From: Treponema sp. | GTDB lineage: Bacteria; Spirochaetota; Spirochaetia; Treponematales; Treponemataceae | Direction of reading: 5' to 3' | Length of the DNA: 64,000 nucleotides | Assembly: GCA_016281495.1 (NCBI GenBank) | Contig: JAEEIU010000002.1 | Span: 124,001 to 188,000, forward strand | In this document: positions 46,755 to 64,000 of the stretch, piece after piece | How positions within the stretch are numbered: position 1 is the stretch's first letter | Layout of the letters: the number at the start of each line of letters is the position of its first letter | Notes under the pieces: model-generated | The model's database searches: none | Told to the model about the DNA's origin: nothing | Seen by the model: the letters and a program-made list of their open reading frames with translations, nothing else | Program-made: the position numbers and the translations under genes

Positions 46755-47309
46755 TTATTTCTTTGGTGGTGCGATTGTTACGATAAGTCCCTCAGGATTT
46801 GAGAGGATGCTTACCTTGTCGCCAAGATTAAGATCCTTGATTGCAAGCTTTCCACCGATCTCAAGTGCAGAGACATCGGCTGTAACAGATTCCGGCATGT
46901 CAGCAGGAAGAGCCTTGAGCTTTACGTCAGGAACATGCTTTACCATGAAACCACCCTTGAGTACACCGGCTGCATTTCCTGTGAGGCGAATCTTAAGTAT
47001 TGCTGTGATCGGCTTGTTTCCGCTTACGATGTGGAAATCTGCGTGAAGATTCTTGTCGGTCTTGATGTCATATTCTGTGTCCTTGATGTATGCCAGATTG
47101 TCCTGACCGTCAATCTTCAAGTTGACCAAAGTTGTTTTTGTAATTGAGCGCCATGCCTTTGAGAATTCTGCGGCATCAATTTCCAGCATGATAGATTCGC
47201 CCTTTTCATTATATGCAACTGCTGGAATGCGTCCCTCTGCACGAAGTCTTTTTGACACGGCTTTTCCTGTCTCTTTACGTGTCTTTGCGTTAATAACAAA
47301 ACGTTCCAT
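46755..47309 (-). CDS. rplY: 50S ribosomal protein L25/Ctc
   Basis: L25 binds 5S rRNA. The protein has 184 residues, so it is the long Ctc type with an N-terminal L25 domain (FVINAKTRKETGKAVSKRLR, then GRIPAVAYNE) and a C-terminal TL5/CTC domain (VKHVPDVKLKALPADMPES, ISALEIG-like VSALEIGGK). It lacks the acidic tail of some Ctc proteins. AAGGAG precedes the ATG at the usual distance. A strong terminator follows. tRNA-Gln and spoVG lie just upstream on the same strand. Confidence 0.95.
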   Translation of the reverse strand: MERFVINAKTRKETGKAVSKRLRAEGRIPAVAYNEKGESIMLEIDAAEFSKAWRSITKTTLVNLKIDGQDNLAYIKDTEYDIKTDKNLHADFHIVSGNKPITAILKIRLTGNAAGVLKGGFMVKHVPDVKLKALPADMPESVTADVSALEIGGKLAIKDLNLGDKVSILSNPEGLIVTIAPPKK

Positions 47310-47358
47310 TATTAGAACTCCTTAAAAAAAGATTACTTAAAACTGTTTTACCTAAAAC

Positions 47359-47431
47359 CTGGGACGGCTGGATTCGAACCAGCGGAATGATGGCACCAAA
47401 AGCCATTGTCTTACCACTTGACGACGTCCCA
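47359..47431 (-). tRNA. tRNA-Gln (UUG)
   Basis: The tRNA is 73 nt on the minus strand. Acceptor TGGGACG (47425-47431) pairs with CGTCCCA (47360-47366), and the discriminator is G. The anticodon loop TTTTGGT carries TTG at 47397-47399, in the stem ATGGC/GCCAT. The T-loop GTTCGAATC is normal. CCA is not encoded. It lies between spoVG and rplY and is likely part of the ispE-spoVG-rplY transcript. Confidence 0.96.
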
Positions 47432-47452
47432 AAATATACTAATCAGAACGAA

Positions 47453-47737
47453 TTAGAAATCCGCGCTGACAGTTCCAGTTTCAAAGTGACCTTCATTATA
47501 TTCGGCCACAATCTTGTCCTGCAAGGCTTGTCTGAACTCAGGACTGATGGGATGAACAACATCCTTGAACTCACCACTCGCTGTTTTCCTACTGGGCATT
47601 GCTATGAACAACCCCGCCTTCCCTTCAATAATCTTGACATTGTGAATTACAAAGCATTCATCAAATGTCACCGTAACGTAGGCCTTTAACTTACCCTCGC
47701 CTTCGATCTTACGGATTCTTACCTCAGTAACTTGCAT
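47453..47737 (-). CDS. spoVG: SpoVG RNA/DNA-binding regulator
   Basis: The ATG at 47737 (MQVTEVRIRKIEGEGKLKAY) with AGGAGG upstream gives 94 residues. The open frame to 47782 runs into ispE and lacks a ribosome site. Conserved SpoVG blocks are VTFDECFVIHNVKIIEG, LFIAMPSRKTASGEFKD, and VVHPISPEFRQ. SpoVG in Borrelia and Gram-positives binds nucleic acids and controls many genes. It lies 23 bases after ispE, a common ispE-spoVG order in spirochaetes and Firmicutes. Confidence 0.95.
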   Translation of the reverse strand: MQVTEVRIRKIEGEGKLKAYVTVTFDECFVIHNVKIIEGKAGLFIAMPSRKTASGEFKDVVHPISPEFRQALQDKIVAEYNEGHFETGTVSADF

Positions 47738-47760
47738 AAACCCGTCCTCCTGACCATTTT

Positions 47761-48642
47761 TTAAAGTAGTAAGGAGTCCCACTGCATTGCCAGCGTCCTG
47801 TATGCAAAATCAGCCTTGTTCCTATCCTCAAAGACAGCAAAAACAGTAGACCCCGAGCCAGACATATCAACAAAGTCAGCACCAGCTTTTATAAGCTCAT
47901 CCATGGCTTGTCGTATTCTGGGGTACCTTCCCGCAACAGGAGCTGTAAAATCGTTACTGAAAAACCATTCCCGTATCGGCTTTTTATACAAACATTCAAG
48001 ATCTTCATCCGAACGCTTGCTTTCCGTATTCAACCCGAGTGAAGCATCGACCAGATCATATGCATCTTTTGTCGAAACATGCACTCCAGGAAAAACCAAA
48101 AGAATCGAAAAATCATTCCGGTTTTCTATTGGCTTTATTATCTCACCGCGACCTCTTACAATCGCAGTAAAACCTCTCCCAATGGAATTGACTTTATTTT
48201 CCTCCACGAGCCGACGAGTAAAAAAATAAACATCGCTTCCAACCTGCCCCGCAATATCAAGCAAGGCAGAATCACTTAACTGAGTACCGAACAATGTGTC
48301 AATGGATTTAATAAAAGAAGAAGAATCACTTGATCCGCCCCCCAATCCACCGCCGGCAGGAATGCGCTTTGTCACATGAACATGAACGCCCTCCCGTATG
48401 CCAGTCAGCACGCAGAAAGCTTTGTATGCCTTTGTAAATGTATTCTCCTGAGGAAGAACCATCCCCTCGCAGTCCACTTTGCAGACATCTTTTTGATCTA
48501 AAACTTGAACGGTAATTGAATCGCACAGATTTACGGTCGAAAAAATACTTTCTATCTCGTGGTAACCGTCCGCCCGCTTAGGAAAAACCCTGAGTCCAAG
48601 ATTTATCTTTGCCGGAGCCTGAACAGTCAAACTACGCAACAT
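47761..48642 (-). CDS. ispE: 4-(cytidine 5'-diphospho)-2-C-methyl-D-erythritol kinase
   Basis: IspE phosphorylates CDP-ME, the MEP pathway step between the two activities of the fused IspDF at 21603-22841. The protein has 293 residues with GHMP kinase motifs: PAKINLGLRV near the N-terminus, the ATP loop PAGGGLGGGSSD (95-106) and MSGSGSTVFA near the C-terminus. The length is normal. The promoter is strong (TTGACA-17-TATATT) and its -10 box ends eight bases before the ATG, so the mRNA is probably leaderless. A MITE-like repeat lies upstream. Confidence 0.95.
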   Translation of the reverse strand: MLRSLTVQAPAKINLGLRVFPKRADGYHEIESIFSTVNLCDSITVQVLDQKDVCKVDCEGMVLPQENTFTKAYKAFCVLTGIREGVHVHVTKRIPAGGGLGGGSSDSSSFIKSIDTLFGTQLSDSALLDIAGQVGSDVYFFTRRLVEENKVNSIGRGFTAIVRGRGEIIKPIENRNDFSILLVFPGVHVSTKDAYDLVDASLGLNTESKRSDEDLECLYKKPIREWFFSNDFTAPVAGRYPRIRQAMDELIKAGADFVDMSGSGSTVFAVFEDRNKADFAYRTLAMQWDSLLL

Positions 48643-48650
48643 ACCGGAAC

Positions 48651-48679
48651 AATATATATTTTTTTTATGTTTGTGTCAA
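48651..48679 (-). promoter_or_regulatory. Promoter of ispE, likely leaderless
   Basis: On the minus strand a perfect TTGACA (48674-48679), 17 bases, TATATT (48651-48656), then about eight bases to the ATG. No Shine-Dalgarno site fits in the gap. Confidence 0.65.
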
Positions 48680-48805
48680 GAAGAAAATCAATTCAGAATT
48701 AAGAATGCATAATGCATAATTAGGAATTATGAATGTAGAATTATGTATTGAAGCTGTCATGCTGATTTGCTTTGTGTCTTGCTGGATGGTAATTGAAGAA
48801 GAGGT

Positions 48806-49069
48806 TTGTCACACGGATTCGAAATGCCTACGGCATTTCCTGAAAGTGGGGTGTCTGGCTGGTTGGTGTTTTCATCTTGCTATTTGGTCATTCCGGGCTT
48901 GACCCGGAATCTTAGCGTTACGTGTTTTGTAGATGTTGCCTCTTGCTGGCTGGGTTAAGAAAAGTCGATTCCTATACGCCAGCTTATCCCAAAAAACTTC
49001 CACTACCCCCCAGAGCCAAACAAAAATCCTTTAAACAAATTGCGTAGCAATTTGGAATCCGCGTGACAA
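48806..49069. repeat. MITE-like repeat, copy C
   Basis: A 264-bp element in the 541-base gap between ispE and the acidic gene. Inverted ends are TTGTCACACGGATTCG (48806-48821) and GGAATCCGCGTGACAA (49054-49069). The end hairpins are GAAATGCC-TAC-GGCATTTC (48821-48839) and CAAATTGC-GTA-GCAATTTG (49036-49054). A CATTCCGGGCTTGACCCGG hairpin lies inside. The rest of the gap (48680-48805) is AT-rich with short AATTATGAAT-type repeats and no ORF. Confidence 0.7.
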
Positions 49070-49128
49070 TTTAAAACGATTGGCACCCCAAATTCCCAAT
49101 AATTTTTCAACTTTTTTTCAAAACCCGA

Positions 49129-56741: not shown

Positions 56742-56793
56742 AATCAGCAGCTGGTAATTGACTGAACAAGTACCAACTGCTGATTTTTTTTTT
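56742..56793 (+). terminator. Rho-independent terminator of the lipoprotein gene
   Basis: AATCAGCAG(C)TGGTA (56742-56755) pairs with TACCA(A)CTGCTGATT (56771-56785), followed by ten Ts. It lies between two convergent genes and the T-run touches the end of the minus-strand gene. Confidence 0.85.
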
Positions 56794-59700
56794 ACTTTAC
56801 ATTCACATCTATCTTCTTGATTTCACCGGTTCTGCAGAAGAGGGACTGGCTCAATTCCTTTGAAAGAATCTTACCATCGATTTTTTCCTTTCCGTTTTCC
56901 TTGGTTACTTCAATTGATGCCTCTCCGCTGGTCTTGTGGTAGACGACCGGAACTCCGCACCAAGTGAATGAAATCTTTCCGTCAGACGAATACTCATCCG
57001 CCTTCAAAATCCTCGGGTTGAATTTTCCGCATCCGTTTTCGATTGAAACTCCAAGCTCACCCCAGCGGGTCAAAACTTCTTCCTTTACCTGACCTGTCAT
57101 GCCGGGCTGTTTTGCTCCCTGTCCAAGCGGTGTATGGGAATATGGATCCGTTGGGAAGGCGCCGTAGATTTCCGGAGTCTTGTTAAAGCTCAGGCCAGAA
57201 CGGATGTCGTAGTATGCCTGAATCAATTTGTCAGCGCAGGGATTACCCTGATCAAGTGCGGCAAATGCATTTTCCTGAACGGCAAGAAGCAGCTTGCTCA
57301 CCATGTGCCAGTAAATGCTTCCGAGTCCTTCGTATGCGTAGAAAGTTCCGGAGCGTCCGGTAAAGTTCTGGTGGCGGAATGTCTTTTCGTACAGTTCTTC
57401 CAGTGCCTTGACTTCTTCTGCACTTGGCTTTTTGTCCTGTGGCAGGGATTCGACATATTCCTTCATTACGCGGGCATTTGTAAAGTCCGGGTTAAAGTGG
57501 AAGTTTCCGTCGTCATCCTCACGCAAAATTGAATTTCCTGAGCGTTCGATAAGGGGCTTTAGGCTTGAACAGTCTGAGGCAGGAATGCAGTTCTTTACCA
57601 TGAACAGCGGAAGTTCCTTGTTTGGATAAAGGGTGTAGGAGTTCTGCCTCTTTTCGTACATGGCGCTTGACTTGAGTGCGTCCACCACTTCCAGAACCTG
57701 CTCCGGTGTAAGGAGGCCTGCTGAAAGAATGGCAACCTGACCTTCAAGCATTTCCTGAAGGCGGGAAACCTTCATCTCATCCCCCTGAATCTTTAGCGTG
57801 TTGTATGTATGGTAAAGTCCGTCATCCCTCTTGTTTTCTGCAATGGAAAGCTCAACAATATTCTGAATGTCCTTGAGGATTTTTACCAGCGCATTGCGTT
57901 CAATTTTATCAGACTGGCCGACATACCCCTGTGCATAAAGGGATTCCCTCTGTTCCTGGAACAAAAGGCCTGCCGCATCTGTAAACTTCTTTCTTGCCTC
58001 ATCATCATGAATGCATTTTCCGTCCGCATTTTTTGCATAGAGTTCGCCCAATCCAAGAAGGCATTTTGCCGTTGAATGTGGAAGAGTAAAATCATTTTGT
58101 GGAGCGTCTGCATAAAGCTGAATCAGGAAAGAAAGCATGCGCCTAAGGTAACACAACGTAACAACGGAAAGTCCCCATCCTGCAAGCGCATTGTTGGCAT
58201 CGTTCCATTCGGGACGCTGGGTGTTCATCCAGATTCCTCCACCTGGGACAAAGTTTGCCGCCTTTGCAATTATTATCTGGAGAATCTTTGCCGTAAAGGA
58301 AACGAGTGCAACTTCTCCGTCTTCATCCTGAACAAGTTTTTTGTCGCTGCCCTCCGCATTCGATTTTGCAAACAGAGTGTCACTCAACTTCTGGTCAAAC
58401 ACAAGGGAGTTCCTCGGGTCAAGGCAAATGTCTTTGTATGACTTAAGTCTGTATGGAATGTTGGAGCTTGAATAAAGTGCCATGTCAAGCTCGCCCAAAA
58501 GTTCCGTGCGGTTAAGGTTTGAATAAAGTTCAAGCAGCTTCTGAAGATATATTACCTGATGGTCGCCCCAATAGCCGAACTGAGCCCATGGATTGTCGGG
58601 TTCCGGCACTTCCCAGTCAACACCCTGTCTTGTAATGCGGTAGGGGTTGAATCCGTCTGCCGTCATTGCATTAAGGAATTTGGCGGTAATGTTCTGAATG
58701 TATTCGGGATATGAATAGCTTAAGGCCTCCCAGTTCTGGAAGATGTCACGCCAGTTTCCCTCGTAATTCAGGATTGGCTTTCCTTCTCCGTCCTGAAGCT
58801 TGATGTTGAATTTATTCCATGGACGGCTCGGGTCGCCGTGTCTGCGGGAGAATGTGATCGGAAGATATTCCAAAAAGAGCCTCTGCAGCTGCCTGTCACG
58901 TGACTTGAAGATTGTATCCTTGAAAACTGTGTACTGGCAGGGCTTATCCTTGTCCATTGAAACCAAAAGCGACTTTACGTCCTGAACCTTTGACTTGTTC
59001 CTCTGGCTGATGAATTTGATGAAATCACTTGGAACGATGCAGCCATTGTCAGCGAAAATTCCTCCGCGCATTATGTTGAACATTACGTTTGCACGGTGGT
59101 GGGCCACAGTCATCTTTGCGTTTCCGTCCTGAATTCCGTCGGCCTGAGCGATGATGTCGGTCATCATTTTTTCTCCGGCATCCACATCGGCTTCCAGAGC
59201 GGTAACCGCCTTCTTCCTGTCAGTTATGGCATGTTCAAGATGAACGATTTTCTTTGCATCAAGAGTCGTGTCAAAAACCTGATACCATGAGTTTACCTGA
59301 GAGGGTGTCAAGGTTAGTTTTTTCCAGATGAAGCATGAAGGGCGTTTTCCCTTTAGCACAGTGTCAGATTCAAGTTTGTCTTTGCTTTCCTTGCTGAAGG
59401 GATCCTCGGCAAAAACGATTGGAGCCTCGTTGGATACGATTACCTTTTCTTCTGTAGAAAACCAGCATGTGTTGGCGTAAAGTCCCTCGCTGGGTTCAGC
59501 CTTGTCGGTGAGGACGGAAGAAAGTGTAAAAAGGGCTACATTGTATTTTGTGTCAATGTCTGTCTTTTTATATGCGTCAAGAAGAACGCTGTTGTTGTTC
59601 TGCAGTTCGGAAGTTGTGGAAGCGGGCATGATGTTCTGTGCGCCGTCAAGAATGCAAAGCTGAACGTCCCTGTTTCCAAGATTCTGGATTACAGACTTGC

Positions 59701-60157
59701 GCACCAAACCAAAGGCCTGAGAAGAAGTCCATCCATAACGGAATGAAAGATTCAGGTTTTCATTGATTTCCTCAAACCAGATTTTTGTACCGTTCAGGTT
59801 TTTGTAGAGGTTGCGACTGATTCCCTTTTCTGCCCTTGCCCTTTGAGCGGCTGTAAACGAAAGGCTTGCAAAGGGTTCCCAGACAACAAGTTCATCCCCA
59901 TTCTTTACCGCTATTGCAGTATAGGGACCCGTACAGTTCTTTGCATCGGAAACCTTGTCTGCGGTGTAATATGGAAAAATTGCATGCTCACGGTCAATAC
60001 GGCCTGCAGTAACTCCGCCATAAGACCAGCAGAAATTCCACACGTCGGAAGAACTCGTAATCGTCATGAAGAAATCTTCCATGTGGTCATAGTTTTCGAT
60101 TTTGTAAAAATCCTCGCCGTCCAGCTTGACAAATCCGCCGTTTACAGTCTTGCTCAT
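56792..60157 (-). CDS. Large cytosolic protein, possible alpha6/alpha6-barrel carbohydrate enzyme
   Basis: The ATG at 60157 (MSKTVNGGFVKLDGEDFYKI) with GGAGGAG upstream gives 1,121 residues and no signal peptide. Residues 1-290 are strand-rich with FFMTITSSSDVWNFCWSYGG and an NLSFRYGWTSSQAFGLVRKS stretch, like the beta-sandwich domain of glycoside phosphorylases (GH94). The central part is helical and contains YEGNWRDIFQNWEALS, GFNPYRITRQGVDWEVPEPD, and WAQFGYWGDHQVIYLQKL, with the look of an alpha6/alpha6 barrel. I cannot assign a GH number. It is probably an intracellular sugar phosphorylase or hydrolase; the substrate is unknown. The next gene upstream on the same strand is thrH, 32 bases away. 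Confidence 0.65.
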   Translation of the reverse strand: MSKTVNGGFVKLDGEDFYKIENYDHMEDFFMTITSSSDVWNFCWSYGGVTAGRIDREHAIFPYYTADKVSDAKNCTGPYTAIAVKNGDELVVWEPFASLSFTAAQRARAEKGISRNLYKNLNGTKIWFEEINENLNLSFRYGWTSSQAFGLVRKSVIQNLGNRDVQLCILDGAQNIMPASTTSELQNNNSVLLDAYKKTDIDTKYNVALFTLSSVLTDKAEPSEGLYANTCWFSTEEKVIVSNEAPIVFAEDPFSKESKDKLESDTVLKGKRPSCFIWKKLTLTPSQVNSWYQVFDTTLDAKKIVHLEHAITDRKKAVTALEADVDAGEKMMTDIIAQADGIQDGNAKMTVAHHRANVMFNIMRGGIFADNGCIVPSDFIKFISQRNKSKVQDVKSLLVSMDKDKPCQYTVFKDTIFKSRDRQLQRLFLEYLPITFSRRHGDPSRPWNKFNIKLQDGEGKPILNYEGNWRDIFQNWEALSYSYPEYIQNITAKFLNAMTADGFNPYRITRQGVDWEVPEPDNPWAQFGYWGDHQVIYLQKLLELYSNLNRTELLGELDMALYSSSNIPYRLKSYKDICLDPRNSLVFDQKLSDTLFAKSNAEGSDKKLVQDEDGEVALVSFTAKILQIIIAKAANFVPGGGIWMNTQRPEWNDANNALAGWGLSVVTLCYLRRMLSFLIQLYADAPQNDFTLPHSTAKCLLGLGELYAKNADGKCIHDDEARKKFTDAAGLLFQEQRESLYAQGYVGQSDKIERNALVKILKDIQNIVELSIAENKRDDGLYHTYNTLKIQGDEMKVSRLQEMLEGQVAILSAGLLTPEQVLEVVDALKSSAMYEKRQNSYTLYPNKELPLFMVKNCIPASDCSSLKPLIERSGNSILREDDDGNFHFNPDFTNARVMKEYVESLPQDKKPSAEEVKALEELYEKTFRHQNFTGRSGTFYAYEGLGSIYWHMVSKLLLAVQENAFAALDQGNPCADKLIQAYYDIRSGLSFNKTPEIYGAFPTDPYSHTPLGQGAKQPGMTGQVKEEVLTRWGELGVSIENGCGKFNPRILKADEYSSDGKISFTWCGVPVVYHKTSGEASIEVTKENGKEKIDGKILSKELSQSLFCRTGEIKKIDVNVK

Positions 60158-60189
60158 ATGCTCCTCCACAAGTCTTTTCCGTACAGGGT

Positions 60190-60792
60190 TTAATCCATTG
60201 CCTTTTTTATAGCATCAAGAAGATCATCGTAGCTTTCAAATGCAGGAAGATCCGGGTTGTCCTTTTTAATCTGATCTGTACTCTTGAACAAAAATCCTGC
60301 CTTGCTTGCACGAATCATGGCAAGGTCGTTGTGGCTGTCTCCGCTTGCAATGGTCTGGTAGCCGATTGACTGGAGTGCCTTTACCGTGGTGAGCTTTGAC
60401 TGGGGGCACCTCATCTTGTAGCCTGTGATTTCTCCGCTGGCTGAAACTTCAAGAGTATTGCAGAAAATCGTGGGCCATGCGAGCTTTTTCATCAGAGGTG
60501 TTGAAAACTGAGTAAAGGTGTCGCTTATGATTATTACCTGACATATTGAACGAAGCTCGTCAAGGAATTCCTTTGCGCCTGGGAGCGGGTCAATTTTGGC
60601 AATGGTATCCTGAATTTCCTTGAGTCCAAGTCCATGCTCCTTTAGAATGCCGATACGCCACTTCATCAGCTTGTCGTAATCGGGTTCATCGCGGGTTGTC
60701 CGTCTTAATTCAGGAATCCCGGAAGCCTCAGAAAAGGCAATCCAAATCTCCGGCACAAGAACGCCTTCAAGATCCAAACAGGTAATATACAT
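60190..60792 (-). CDS. thrH: Phosphoserine phosphatase / homoserine phosphotransferase ThrH
   Basis: ThrH is a HAD enzyme that removes phosphate from phosphoserine and can pass it to homoserine. The protein has 200 residues from ATG 60792 (AGGA eight bases before). The first motif is CLDLEGVLVPEIWIAFSE (D7), lacking the second Asp of typical HADs as in ThrH. Further motifs are IISDTFTQF, the K of CPQSKLTTV and ASGDSHNDLAMI. The length is normal (about 203). It could supply serine or threonine precursors. It is cotranscribed with the downstream large protein. Confidence 0.93.
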   Translation of the reverse strand: MYITCLDLEGVLVPEIWIAFSEASGIPELRRTTRDEPDYDKLMKWRIGILKEHGLGLKEIQDTIAKIDPLPGAKEFLDELRSICQVIIISDTFTQFSTPLMKKLAWPTIFCNTLEVSASGEITGYKMRCPQSKLTTVKALQSIGYQTIASGDSHNDLAMIRASKAGFLFKSTDQIKKDNPDLPAFESYDDLLDAIKKAMD

Positions 60793-60872
60793 ATAATCCA
60801 TCCTATTTAATTAGAGTAAAAAAATATATATCATATTTAGAAATTTAAATCGAGTGGTAATATGAAAAATTT

Positions 60873-61586: not shown

Positions 61587-63932
61587 CTACCAGTTCGAAG
61601 CAGAATCAGGAGCCGTTCTACAAATCCTGAATCCTATGCCTTTGTCCGCATGGTCTGGCACCTGTCTTGCCACCCAGTCGAGCCTGCAGTGTCTTGCATC
61701 ATTGTAGTAGCATCCGCCCTTGATGTAGACGTTATATTCACTCCATGACCATGAGTATTCCGCACAGTCGCTCCAGCACCATTCCCATACGTTGCCTGTC
61801 ATATCATAGAGGCCGTTTTCGTTTGCCTTTTTGGTTCCGACTTCATGAGGAGCCTTTCCGACATATTCAGCATCACTGTTACTAGAATACCAGGCAAGTT
61901 CGTCTATACGGTTTCCACCTGAATAATCCATTTCATAATAAGTTGTTTTTTCTCCACGCCAATTTGTCTTAACCTTACGTCCTGCGGCTACTTCCCATTC
62001 ATCTGTTGTAGGAAGCCTCCAGCCTAAAGCATTTTTGTCCATAAAGACCTGCTTCTTTGCCTTCGCATCACTGTAAGTGTATGGTTTTGTCAAATTCTTG
62101 TCGCTATAGTATACGAGGATTCCCTTGGTTTTATTTCCACTGGCAGAATAAGCTGAAAAGATTTTATCATTTATACGACCTTTTTCAACATTTTCCAGAA
62201 ACCATTTTGTGAAACCATTACAAAAAGCTACAGCCTCAAACCATGTTACGTTTTCTACAGGTAGGTATTTAAAAAATGAACAATTATTTGGATCATAAGG
62301 ATAATAACCCTTAATTATCGAAGGTATATTTTCCATAACTTCCCAATACAAATCCTGATGAACTTCATACTTGCTGAAAATTACATCTTTTTCCAACTGT
62401 TCACTTTTTACAAAGGTTTCTGCCATGTAATTATAACAATACCCAAAACAGTAAAATCCATCATCCAATAGAGGCGGATTAAAATATGACGTGGAGTTTT
62501 CCTCATCATCATATTCATCTTCAAAATCATCCCAATAATCGTTGGCGGCGGCAAGTTCAATGTTTTGTGCCTTTGTCTTTACATCGGATTGATTTGTTTT
62601 TCCTGTTGTCGTACTTGCACCTTCCGTTGAAGATGAATCAAGTACTTCTGCATTCATTTCTTCCACTGTATCATTGTCTGACTGGCTTGTCTTTCGTGGA
62701 ACGTGATTTGCAACCTCATTTGGTTCTTTATGCCATAGTACAGCACCAGAACTTGTAACAACGGAAACCCTATTAATCCATACTTTGAATTCATCTGTTC
62801 CCTTTATACGCTCTAGTTTAAATACAAGCTGTCCTATGATGTCTCCCTTTTCCTTTGGCCCATTGATTCGTTCATAATCAGCGTCATTATCCTGCTTGAC
62901 TTCTATTTTAAATTCTTTGTTATATTCAATGTTTGGGTCCTGTGACTTAAATGTCACTGGGAAATACTGTTTAGGTTTGGCATCTGGTTCAAATTCTCCT
63001 AAATTAGTAGGAAACAATTTCTCGCCACTTAACGTAAATTCCTTTTCGAGCATTTCACTTATTATGTTTTCCTTTTTATTTTCATAATTCTTTATTTCAG
63101 CCTCATATTTAACCTTTTGATTTTTCTTCATTTCTAAAATTTCTTTGGCACGAGCTTTCTCAAGTTTTTCTATGCTTGTCCTTTTATCATTTTCTTTATA
63201 TTCTTGACTTTTGTTTTTTGGATACTCTCTCTTATTTACTTTATCAATCTCATCAGCAAATCTTTTTGCAATTTCGGTTTCTTTATCTGCTATCTCATTG
63301 TCACGTGTTCGCTCAGTCTCACGCTTTTTCTCCTTCCATTTTTCCATTTCTTCTAGATAATCTGCAAGCGTTACCAGTTTCTTTGTATTCTTTAAAAGCT
63401 GTTCTACCACTTTTGAATCGGCGATATCGTATAATTTTGGGCCTACTATTATTTTACCTGTCTCTATTTCGATTGTCTTTACGGTTAACTCCTTTTTCTT
63501 GTCCAGCTGTTGGAAAGTTACGTAAACAATGTATTTTGCACCCGCCTCATTACCAAGTTTTACCATTTTATCATCGCTTACAAAACCAGAATACTGTAAG
63601 TCGACCTCTGCTTTTATTGCAGCACGATCTGTTTCACTTCGGGCAAGAAGCTGACAGTTTTTACTTTTTTTGATTTCGGACTCAAAACGCTTTGCAAGAT
63701 AATCTGCCATATCCTTTGTATCAGTATTGCTTACAACAACGGCAATATTAGCCTTGGACTTTTTGAATTCCTTTTTGTTAAAGTACTGGATTATTTCTTT
63801 TGAGGATGAAGTAATCGCCTTGTCGAGATCTATTTTTGACTCCTCTGCATGCAATGGTAAATTTGCAAAGAGCAACAACACTGTACAGAGACAGTTAAAA
63901 AGCTTTTTATTACGCTTAAAAATATTCAACAT
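61587..63932 (-). CDS. CsgG/LpoB-like domain fused to an FGE-sulfatase (SUMF1) domain
   Basis: A 781-residue secreted protein (signal peptide up to LPLHAEES, about residue 29). Residues 50-180 look like CsgG/LpoB/TolB-N type folds (SKANIAVVVSNTDTKDMADY, then NEAGAKYIVYVTFQQLDKKK). Residues 190-300 are a Lys/Glu coiled coil. A Thr/Ser linker is near 440-460. The last 290 residues match the formylglycine-generating sulfatase domain: AVAFCNGFTKWFLENV, LGWRLPTTDEWEVAAGR, YDMTGNVWEWCW and GIGFRICRT. Non-catalytic SUMF1 domains often bind sugars or protein partners. The start of the window's last bases (63933-64000) shows no further gene. Confidence 0.8.
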   Translation of the reverse strand: MLNIFKRNKKLFNCLCTVLLLFANLPLHAEESKIDLDKAITSSSKEIIQYFNKKEFKKSKANIAVVVSNTDTKDMADYLAKRFESEIKKSKNCQLLARSETDRAAIKAEVDLQYSGFVSDDKMVKLGNEAGAKYIVYVTFQQLDKKKELTVKTIEIETGKIIVGPKLYDIADSKVVEQLLKNTKKLVTLADYLEEMEKWKEKKRETERTRDNEIADKETEIAKRFADEIDKVNKREYPKNKSQEYKENDKRTSIEKLEKARAKEILEMKKNQKVKYEAEIKNYENKKENIISEMLEKEFTLSGEKLFPTNLGEFEPDAKPKQYFPVTFKSQDPNIEYNKEFKIEVKQDNDADYERINGPKEKGDIIGQLVFKLERIKGTDEFKVWINRVSVVTSSGAVLWHKEPNEVANHVPRKTSQSDNDTVEEMNAEVLDSSSTEGASTTTGKTNQSDVKTKAQNIELAAANDYWDDFEDEYDDEENSTSYFNPPLLDDGFYCFGYCYNYMAETFVKSEQLEKDVIFSKYEVHQDLYWEVMENIPSIIKGYYPYDPNNCSFFKYLPVENVTWFEAVAFCNGFTKWFLENVEKGRINDKIFSAYSASGNKTKGILVYYSDKNLTKPYTYSDAKAKKQVFMDKNALGWRLPTTDEWEVAAGRKVKTNWRGEKTTYYEMDYSGGNRIDELAWYSSNSDAEYVGKAPHEVGTKKANENGLYDMTGNVWEWCWSDCAEYSWSWSEYNVYIKGGCYYNDARHCRLDWVARQVPDHADKGIGFRICRTAPDSASNW

Positions 63933-64000
63933 GGTTTTCCTCCATCACTCATTTATTGTTCAGTCAAAACTTCATCTAAAACTAGCGGTTTTGATTTTCT

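Follow-up and report, generated by a model that had tools for sequence, protein, structure and literature searches.

The penicillin-binding protein activator LpoB docks on the UB2H domain of PBP1b. Other envelope proteins with comparable parts have been described around flagella and, according to two reports, FlgP, Lpp20 and FlgT have a common SHS2-like fold (PMC12222027), FlgP and FlgT forming rings or disks (PMC12222027, PMC11756786). In Helicobacter pylori, HP1454 and Lpp20 (HP1456) are encoded in one operon and both interact with FlgP and FapH, with no mutual interaction of HP1454 and Lpp20 in a two-hybrid test (PMC11756786). The FGE-type C-type-lectin fold of TvpA from T. denticola is described as a general ligand-binding motif (PMC5006420), and the copper site of the formylglycine-generating enzyme (FGE) as a bis-thiolate (PMC12123546).

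The locus described here lies in a window of 64,000 nucleotides (the whole stretch of DNA that was analysed) from a Treponema sp. and encodes a fusion protein, c1. Its signal peptide is followed by an LpoB-like domain and a helical hairpin; next come a beta domain and a linker, and the last domain is SUMF1, of the FGE-type C-type-lectin class (Table 1). Coordinates, strand and overall architecture had been given in an earlier interpretation made from the DNA letters (the sequence-only reading) and were confirmed by the open reading frame and Pfam. The FGE-sulfatase family of Pfam matched residues 556-771 with E 2.4e-24 (86.8 bits, cut-off 23.3). Pfam LpoB (PF13036) matched residues 76-150 with E 1.9e-4, its 21.8 bits lying 0.5 bit below the cut-off of 22.3; nine relatives scored above this cut-off (six), at it (one) or below it (two, one of them Treponema zioleckii). 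Comparison of residues 34-172 of the AlphaFold2 model with the C-terminal domain of LpoB led to Z 11.8 and rmsd 3.2 over 124 aligned residues of a 135-residue chain, which upholds the LpoB-like N-terminal domain of the sequence-only reading by its fold, and further fold relatives were GNA1162, PelC, FlgT and TolB (Z 7-8). The model was built from 14 sequences and reached a pLDDT of mostly 66-92 per block of ten over residues 31-410, with a dip below 50 at residues 99-118. Beyond the conserved part of the protein (LpoB-like domain, hairpin and beta domain; in the following the N-module) it was poor, with a pLDDT below 50 for the SUMF1 head, and the fold of the head thus rests on sequence matches. 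A fold search with the whole fusion gave no information on the beta domain or the head. Two long helices (residues 189-233 and 243-296) agree with the coiled coil that had been proposed to join the two ends of the protein, but the beta domain that follows them had been overlooked. Identity to the fusion of T. zioleckii amounts to 57% in the LpoB-like domain, 41% in the hairpin, 53% in the beta domain and 51% in the SUMF1 head, but 21% in the linker. The likeness to LpoB is one of fold over residues 34-172, whereas c1 differs from LpoB by the added hairpin, beta domain and head and by the lipobox, as no lipobox cysteine was seen by eye after its hydrophobic N-terminal stretch (...FNCLCTVLLLFANLPLHAEES).

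Table 1. Position of the fusion gene, its domains and its neighbours (window coordinates; domain limits as residues of the encoded protein)
Feature	Position	Strand	Basis
Fusion protein c1, 781 aa	61587..63932	(-)	ORF list, Pfam, AlphaFold2, fold search
LpoB-like domain, residues 34-172	63417..63833	(-)	Fold match and Pfam LpoB
Two-helix hairpin (coiled coil), residues 189-296	63045..63368	(-)	AlphaFold2, pLDDT about 66-92 per block of ten
Beta domain, no family assigned, residues 298-411, closes conserved N-module	62700..63041	(-)	AlphaFold2 and conservation in relatives
Linker, residues 412-515, poorly conserved	62388..62699	(-)	AlphaFold2 and comparison with T. zioleckii
SUMF1 / FGE-type head, residues 516-776	61605..62387	(-)	Pfam, PDB alignments, motif
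Secreted transglycosylase-like protein, 237 aa	60873..61586	(-)	ORF list, family alignment
Lipoprotein gene c4, last 19 bases in window	63982..64000, continues to 64683	(-)	L011 7983-8684
LPP20-like gene c2, past window edge	64738-65826	(-)	L011 8739-9827

When the C-terminal parts of 13 N-module proteins from 11 genomes were compared by blastp, they fell into groups with little or no similarity across them. SUMF1 heads were found in the window and in T. zioleckii, the sole further genome in which the complete fusion was detected, so that this form is rare (2/274 genomes of the family). Four heads are CIA30-like (G092a, G095, G139 and G260), with Pfam CIA30 above the cut-off in three and below it in one; three are barrel-like (G092b, G219 and G205), with Pfam OMP_b-brl below the cut-off in all three; two belong to one unnamed kind (G014 and G121); and the last two, both in G088, have only a 27-aa stretch in common. 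The sole blastp matches across groups covered an 84-aa stretch between G092b and the heads of G092a and G095 (E 2e-4 and 5e-5). Judged from these alignments, at least five kinds of C-terminal head occur on the N-module. A profile of the N-module matched 255 of 390 genomes of the order, mostly via the LpoB-like domain alone, and among the matches listed those to the whole N-module were restricted to the family of the window genome. Several loci showed related arrangements. At L213 (6211-8472) an LpoB-like domain is fused to Sel1 repeats beside c4 and c2, so that a related base carries a further type of head there. In other triads, some short LpoB-like proteins have a barrel-like end as read by eye (e.g. 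...FGAGINAGFRF). Six frames at five loci (L247-L251; G113:C51, G132:C19, G128:C48, G238:C180 and G243:C1) match the hairpin plus beta part and have no LpoB-like match; neither c2 nor c4 was seen at these loci, and a match to this part only was obtained at G348:C29:23196-23837.

The genes upstream of the fusion proved to be its conserved companions. In the window genome the minus strand carries c2, c4, the fusion, the transglycosylase-like gene, ThrH and GH149 with gaps of 54, 49, 0, 71 and 20 bases. Of the 15 loci at which the N-module was detected, two (G104:C391 and G264:C124) are cut by the contig start within the N-module gene and are unreadable upstream. In all of the 13 readable loci (window, T. 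zioleckii, G014, G121, G260, G092, G219, G095, G139, G205, G088, G078 and G251, the gene of the last running off its contig) c2 lies upstream of the N-module gene with at most two genes between them, and 10 of the 13 have c4 nearby as well, the misses being T. zioleckii and two contigs of less than 5 kb; given the near-duplicate pairs G078/G088, G092/G095 and G014/G121, about ten of these 13 loci are independent. In T. zioleckii c4 is absent beside the fusion, and a weak match (3.6e-15) was detected elsewhere in the genome. Twenty c4 loci were sampled separately from the family matches ranked 11-30, that is from the top of the ranking, and had c2 nearby in 16 cases, an LpoB-like gene in 10 and a transglycosylase-like gene in none. 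The usual partners of the fusion are thus c2, an HP1454/FlgT-like secreted protein, and c4, a lipoprotein, both encoded upstream.

The AlphaFold2 model of c2, calculated for the T. zioleckii sequence with a mean pLDDT of 83, resembles H. pylori HP1454 along almost the entire chain (residues 42-340; Z 10.3, rmsd 6.4, 222 aligned). Its second half matches LptE (Z 10.8, rmsd 3.4), CsgG (Z 10.2, rmsd 4.1) and HpaA (Z 9.9, rmsd 3.0) with 114-119 aligned residues each, as well as PelC, also within Z 9-11, and the match to FlgT covers residues 44-339 with an rmsd of 12.6. An LPP20-type first half is less certain than the assignment of the second half, as Pfam LPP20 gave 0.032 and 0.0076 there, both below the cut-off. 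For c4, a lipobox-like N-terminus was seen by eye in seven of eight aligned members, which have 26 invariant columns in common; neither a Pfam match nor a credible PDB relative was obtained, and comparing the c2 profile with those of c1 and c4 was uninformative. The HP1454/Lpp20 operon is similar in its HP1454-like component, but the accessible part of its description mentions no LpoB-like head-bearing protein (PMC11756786), and c4 has no sequence match to any solved LPP20 protein.

From the fold of the base, the conserved neighbours and the swapped heads, we consider it rather probable that c1, c2 and c4 make up an envelope module of the Treponema family that is associated with the outer membrane, the fusion being the subunit that bears the head. 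In such a module c2 and c4 would form an outer-membrane-associated base, on which c1 may dock under the outer membrane through its LpoB-like domain; the hairpin and the beta domain would serve as a spacer, and the ligand met by the interchangeable head would vary with the lineage. In the window protein and its T. zioleckii counterpart, the FGE-type C-type-lectin head would bind its ligand instead of oxidising a cysteine. The outer-membrane location is suggested by the barrel-like heads, the lipobox of c4 and the fold relatives. Extending this, we tentatively suggest, as a possibility of modest weight, an undescribed and widespread spirochaete outer-membrane assembly, in which an LPP20/CsgG-type ring would surround an LpoB-like base and the scaffold would be re-targeted by domain swapping; its heads, in this same tentative extension, would be lectin-like, carbohydrate-binding-like or an outer-membrane barrel. 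The kinds of domain in the module are all known already, and in the part of the open literature covered no module of the LPP20/CsgG/LpoB type whose heads are interchangeable was found for treponemes. Spirochaete outer membranes are poorly understood, and parts of the module are common in the family (of 274 genomes, 190 have c2-type and 181 have c4-type genes). The pattern of one base with many heads is a direct handle on the function of the module, as heads can be swapped and assayed.

The module might instead serve as scaffold for a disk or ring in the periplasm, in a manner comparable to that of FlgO/FlgP/FlgT at flagella. Its parts are similar, with an LpoB/FlgO-like and a FlgT/HP1454-like component, and the rings or disks of FlgP and FlgT fit such a function. 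However, spirochaetal flagella remain in the periplasm, and the heads of the module are swapped, unlike in the flagellar proteins. We regard this explanation as rather unlikely.

Still less probable is the proposal of the sequence-only reading that the fusion and the adjacent transglycosylase-like protein form an LpoB-style periplasmic wall-control unit in which the SUMF1 domain binds glycan. The two genes indeed follow each other without a gap, as that reading had it, since the stop codon of the fusion (61587-61589) is directly followed by the start codon of its neighbour in the junction TAGATG, and they are probably co-transcribed in the window genome. The neighbouring protein has a signal-peptide-like stretch at its N-terminus, and landmarks of the SLT family (PF01464) were invariant and in the right order in 23 aligned members of the 30 found (E70, G102..Q105 as GxxQ, and Y189-N190). 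The lysozyme-type fold claimed for it is supported by these landmarks but not by significant profile matches: Pfam SLT gave E 0.049 (13.6 against 21.3 bits) and no match in 22 relatives scanned alongside, a profile search of the PDB one irrelevant match and nothing meaningful, and hhalign of the family against true SLT domains a probability of 7.8% with the GxxQ columns aligned correctly. A transglycosylase-like fold appears likely. Together with the LpoB fold of the fusion, these landmarks and the junction speak for a wall-control unit; its conservation is another matter. An initial contig scan with the transglycosylase-like protein as query found no relative, and the search of the family detected relatives in 24 of 274 genomes at 30 places, 11 of which were read with about 1.5 kb per side, several stopping at contig ends. 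In the stretches read around these 30 loci and the 15 N-module loci, the two genes adjoin at the window's own locus only. In T. zioleckii, the closest relative of the transglycosylase-like gene (47%; 915-1604) and the fusion (46%; 46933-49128) are on one contig and 45 kb apart, the kind of separation of homologues that the sequence-only reading had named as speaking against itself.

A SUMF1 gene of any kind adjoins the transglycosylase-like gene in 3 of the 30 loci (its own, L079 and L124), but the N-module profile matched none of the adjoining SUMF1 genes at L079 and L124. Without its own locus, the 2 observed among 29 compare with 0.39 expected (P 0.06, near chance; 19 SUMF1 matches, the count of the window genome, and 2800 genes per genome being assumed). 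The flanks of seven other loci, compared with Pfam, contained leuA, gltX, mnmG, an amino-acid kinase gene and a MORN-repeat gene, two being uninformative; the second copy in the window genome (L071) adjoins leuA. The neighbourhoods at the 30 and 15 loci led us to reject the pair as a conserved unit, and the transglycosylase-like gene is outside the three-gene module, a neighbour in this genome and not a conserved partner. The partner domain of LpoB points in the same direction. A search for UB2H gave no match in the window's own genome and weak matches in 21 of 39 genomes, T. zioleckii not being among these 39. Most of the weak matches fell within frames about 670 or 1200 aa long; we take these frames to be UvrB and Mfd. 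An LpoB-type role of the fusion at PBP1b is unlikely because UB2H passes the cut-off in none of the 39 genomes. Taken together, we regard the wall-control unit as improbable. As side observations, the transglycosylase-like relative at L124 (G232:C40) lies between two SUMF1 genes, one of which encodes SUMF1 plus PDZ domains, and in the window genome a ThrH phosphatase gene (60190-60801) lies between the transglycosylase-like gene and a GH149 1,3-beta-glucan phosphorylase gene (56792-60169 (-); NCBIfam 1343 bits), the second gene past it in the same run.

Returning to the head-bearing subunit of a three-gene module, the SUMF1 head could in principle be catalytically active in the periplasm, generating formylglycine or acting as another oxidising enzyme. 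The Pfam score far above the cut-off is in line with this, and one of the two cysteine positions of FGE is kept, leaving an unusual activity conceivable. We take these two cysteines to be the copper ligands of FGE. In the aligned FGE structures (6s07 and 6muj) the motif GGSFLCHESYC has cysteine at both positions, whereas the head of the window protein reads GGCYYNDARHC (residues 739-749), with Asn744 at the first position and Cys749 at the second, and that of T. zioleckii GGCFYNPEKNC, likewise with Asn and Cys. Thus, of the cysteine/metal ligands that the sequence-only reading had marked for inspection, the second is present and the first is replaced in both known fusions. Moreover, the best solved relative of the head is a binding protein, T. 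denticola variable protein 1 (E 4.3e-13; 6.9e-70 with the family profile), which we take to be TvpA. An active enzyme is therefore very improbable. Cysteine as the fourth residue after GG was absent from all of 12 aligned heads (those of the window protein and of T. zioleckii plus ten more from the window genome, the state in L009 being read from the alignment), and SUMF1 therefore seems to have been expanded here as a binding domain; the window genome (G000, 3.2 Mb) has 19 FGE-sulfatase matches.

That a diversity-generating retroelement varies the head, as the best solved relative would suggest, can be dismissed as next to impossible, since the 98.8% complete genome gave no match to RVT_1 and the last 314 bases of the gene found elsewhere in the genome only matches of 38-77 bases, always within one and the same stretch, which is no template repeat. 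Unlike TvpA, the head is carried on an LpoB-like base. With one FGE cysteine missing and no RVT_1 in the genome, the head most likely is a fixed, non-catalytic binding module. The glycan-binding part proposed earlier thus survives as a binding module, in a slot that is swapped in relatives, for which a glycan would be a plausible ligand. Unfused SUMF1 genes also occur beside c2/c4 or their LpoB-like gene (G242 and G006) or near c2 (G104), those of G006 and G104 having been picked from match lists and not from a sample. At L214 (G242:C45, 313-5254), c4, c2 and a short LpoB-like protein with a barrel-like end are followed by a SUMF1 lipoprotein of six List_Bact repeats plus a SUMF1 domain, and at L246 (G006:C86, 1367-6353) c2 and c4 are directly followed by a 970-residue frame ending in SUMF1. 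In G104, the SUMF1 gene is located about 1.2 kb from c2.
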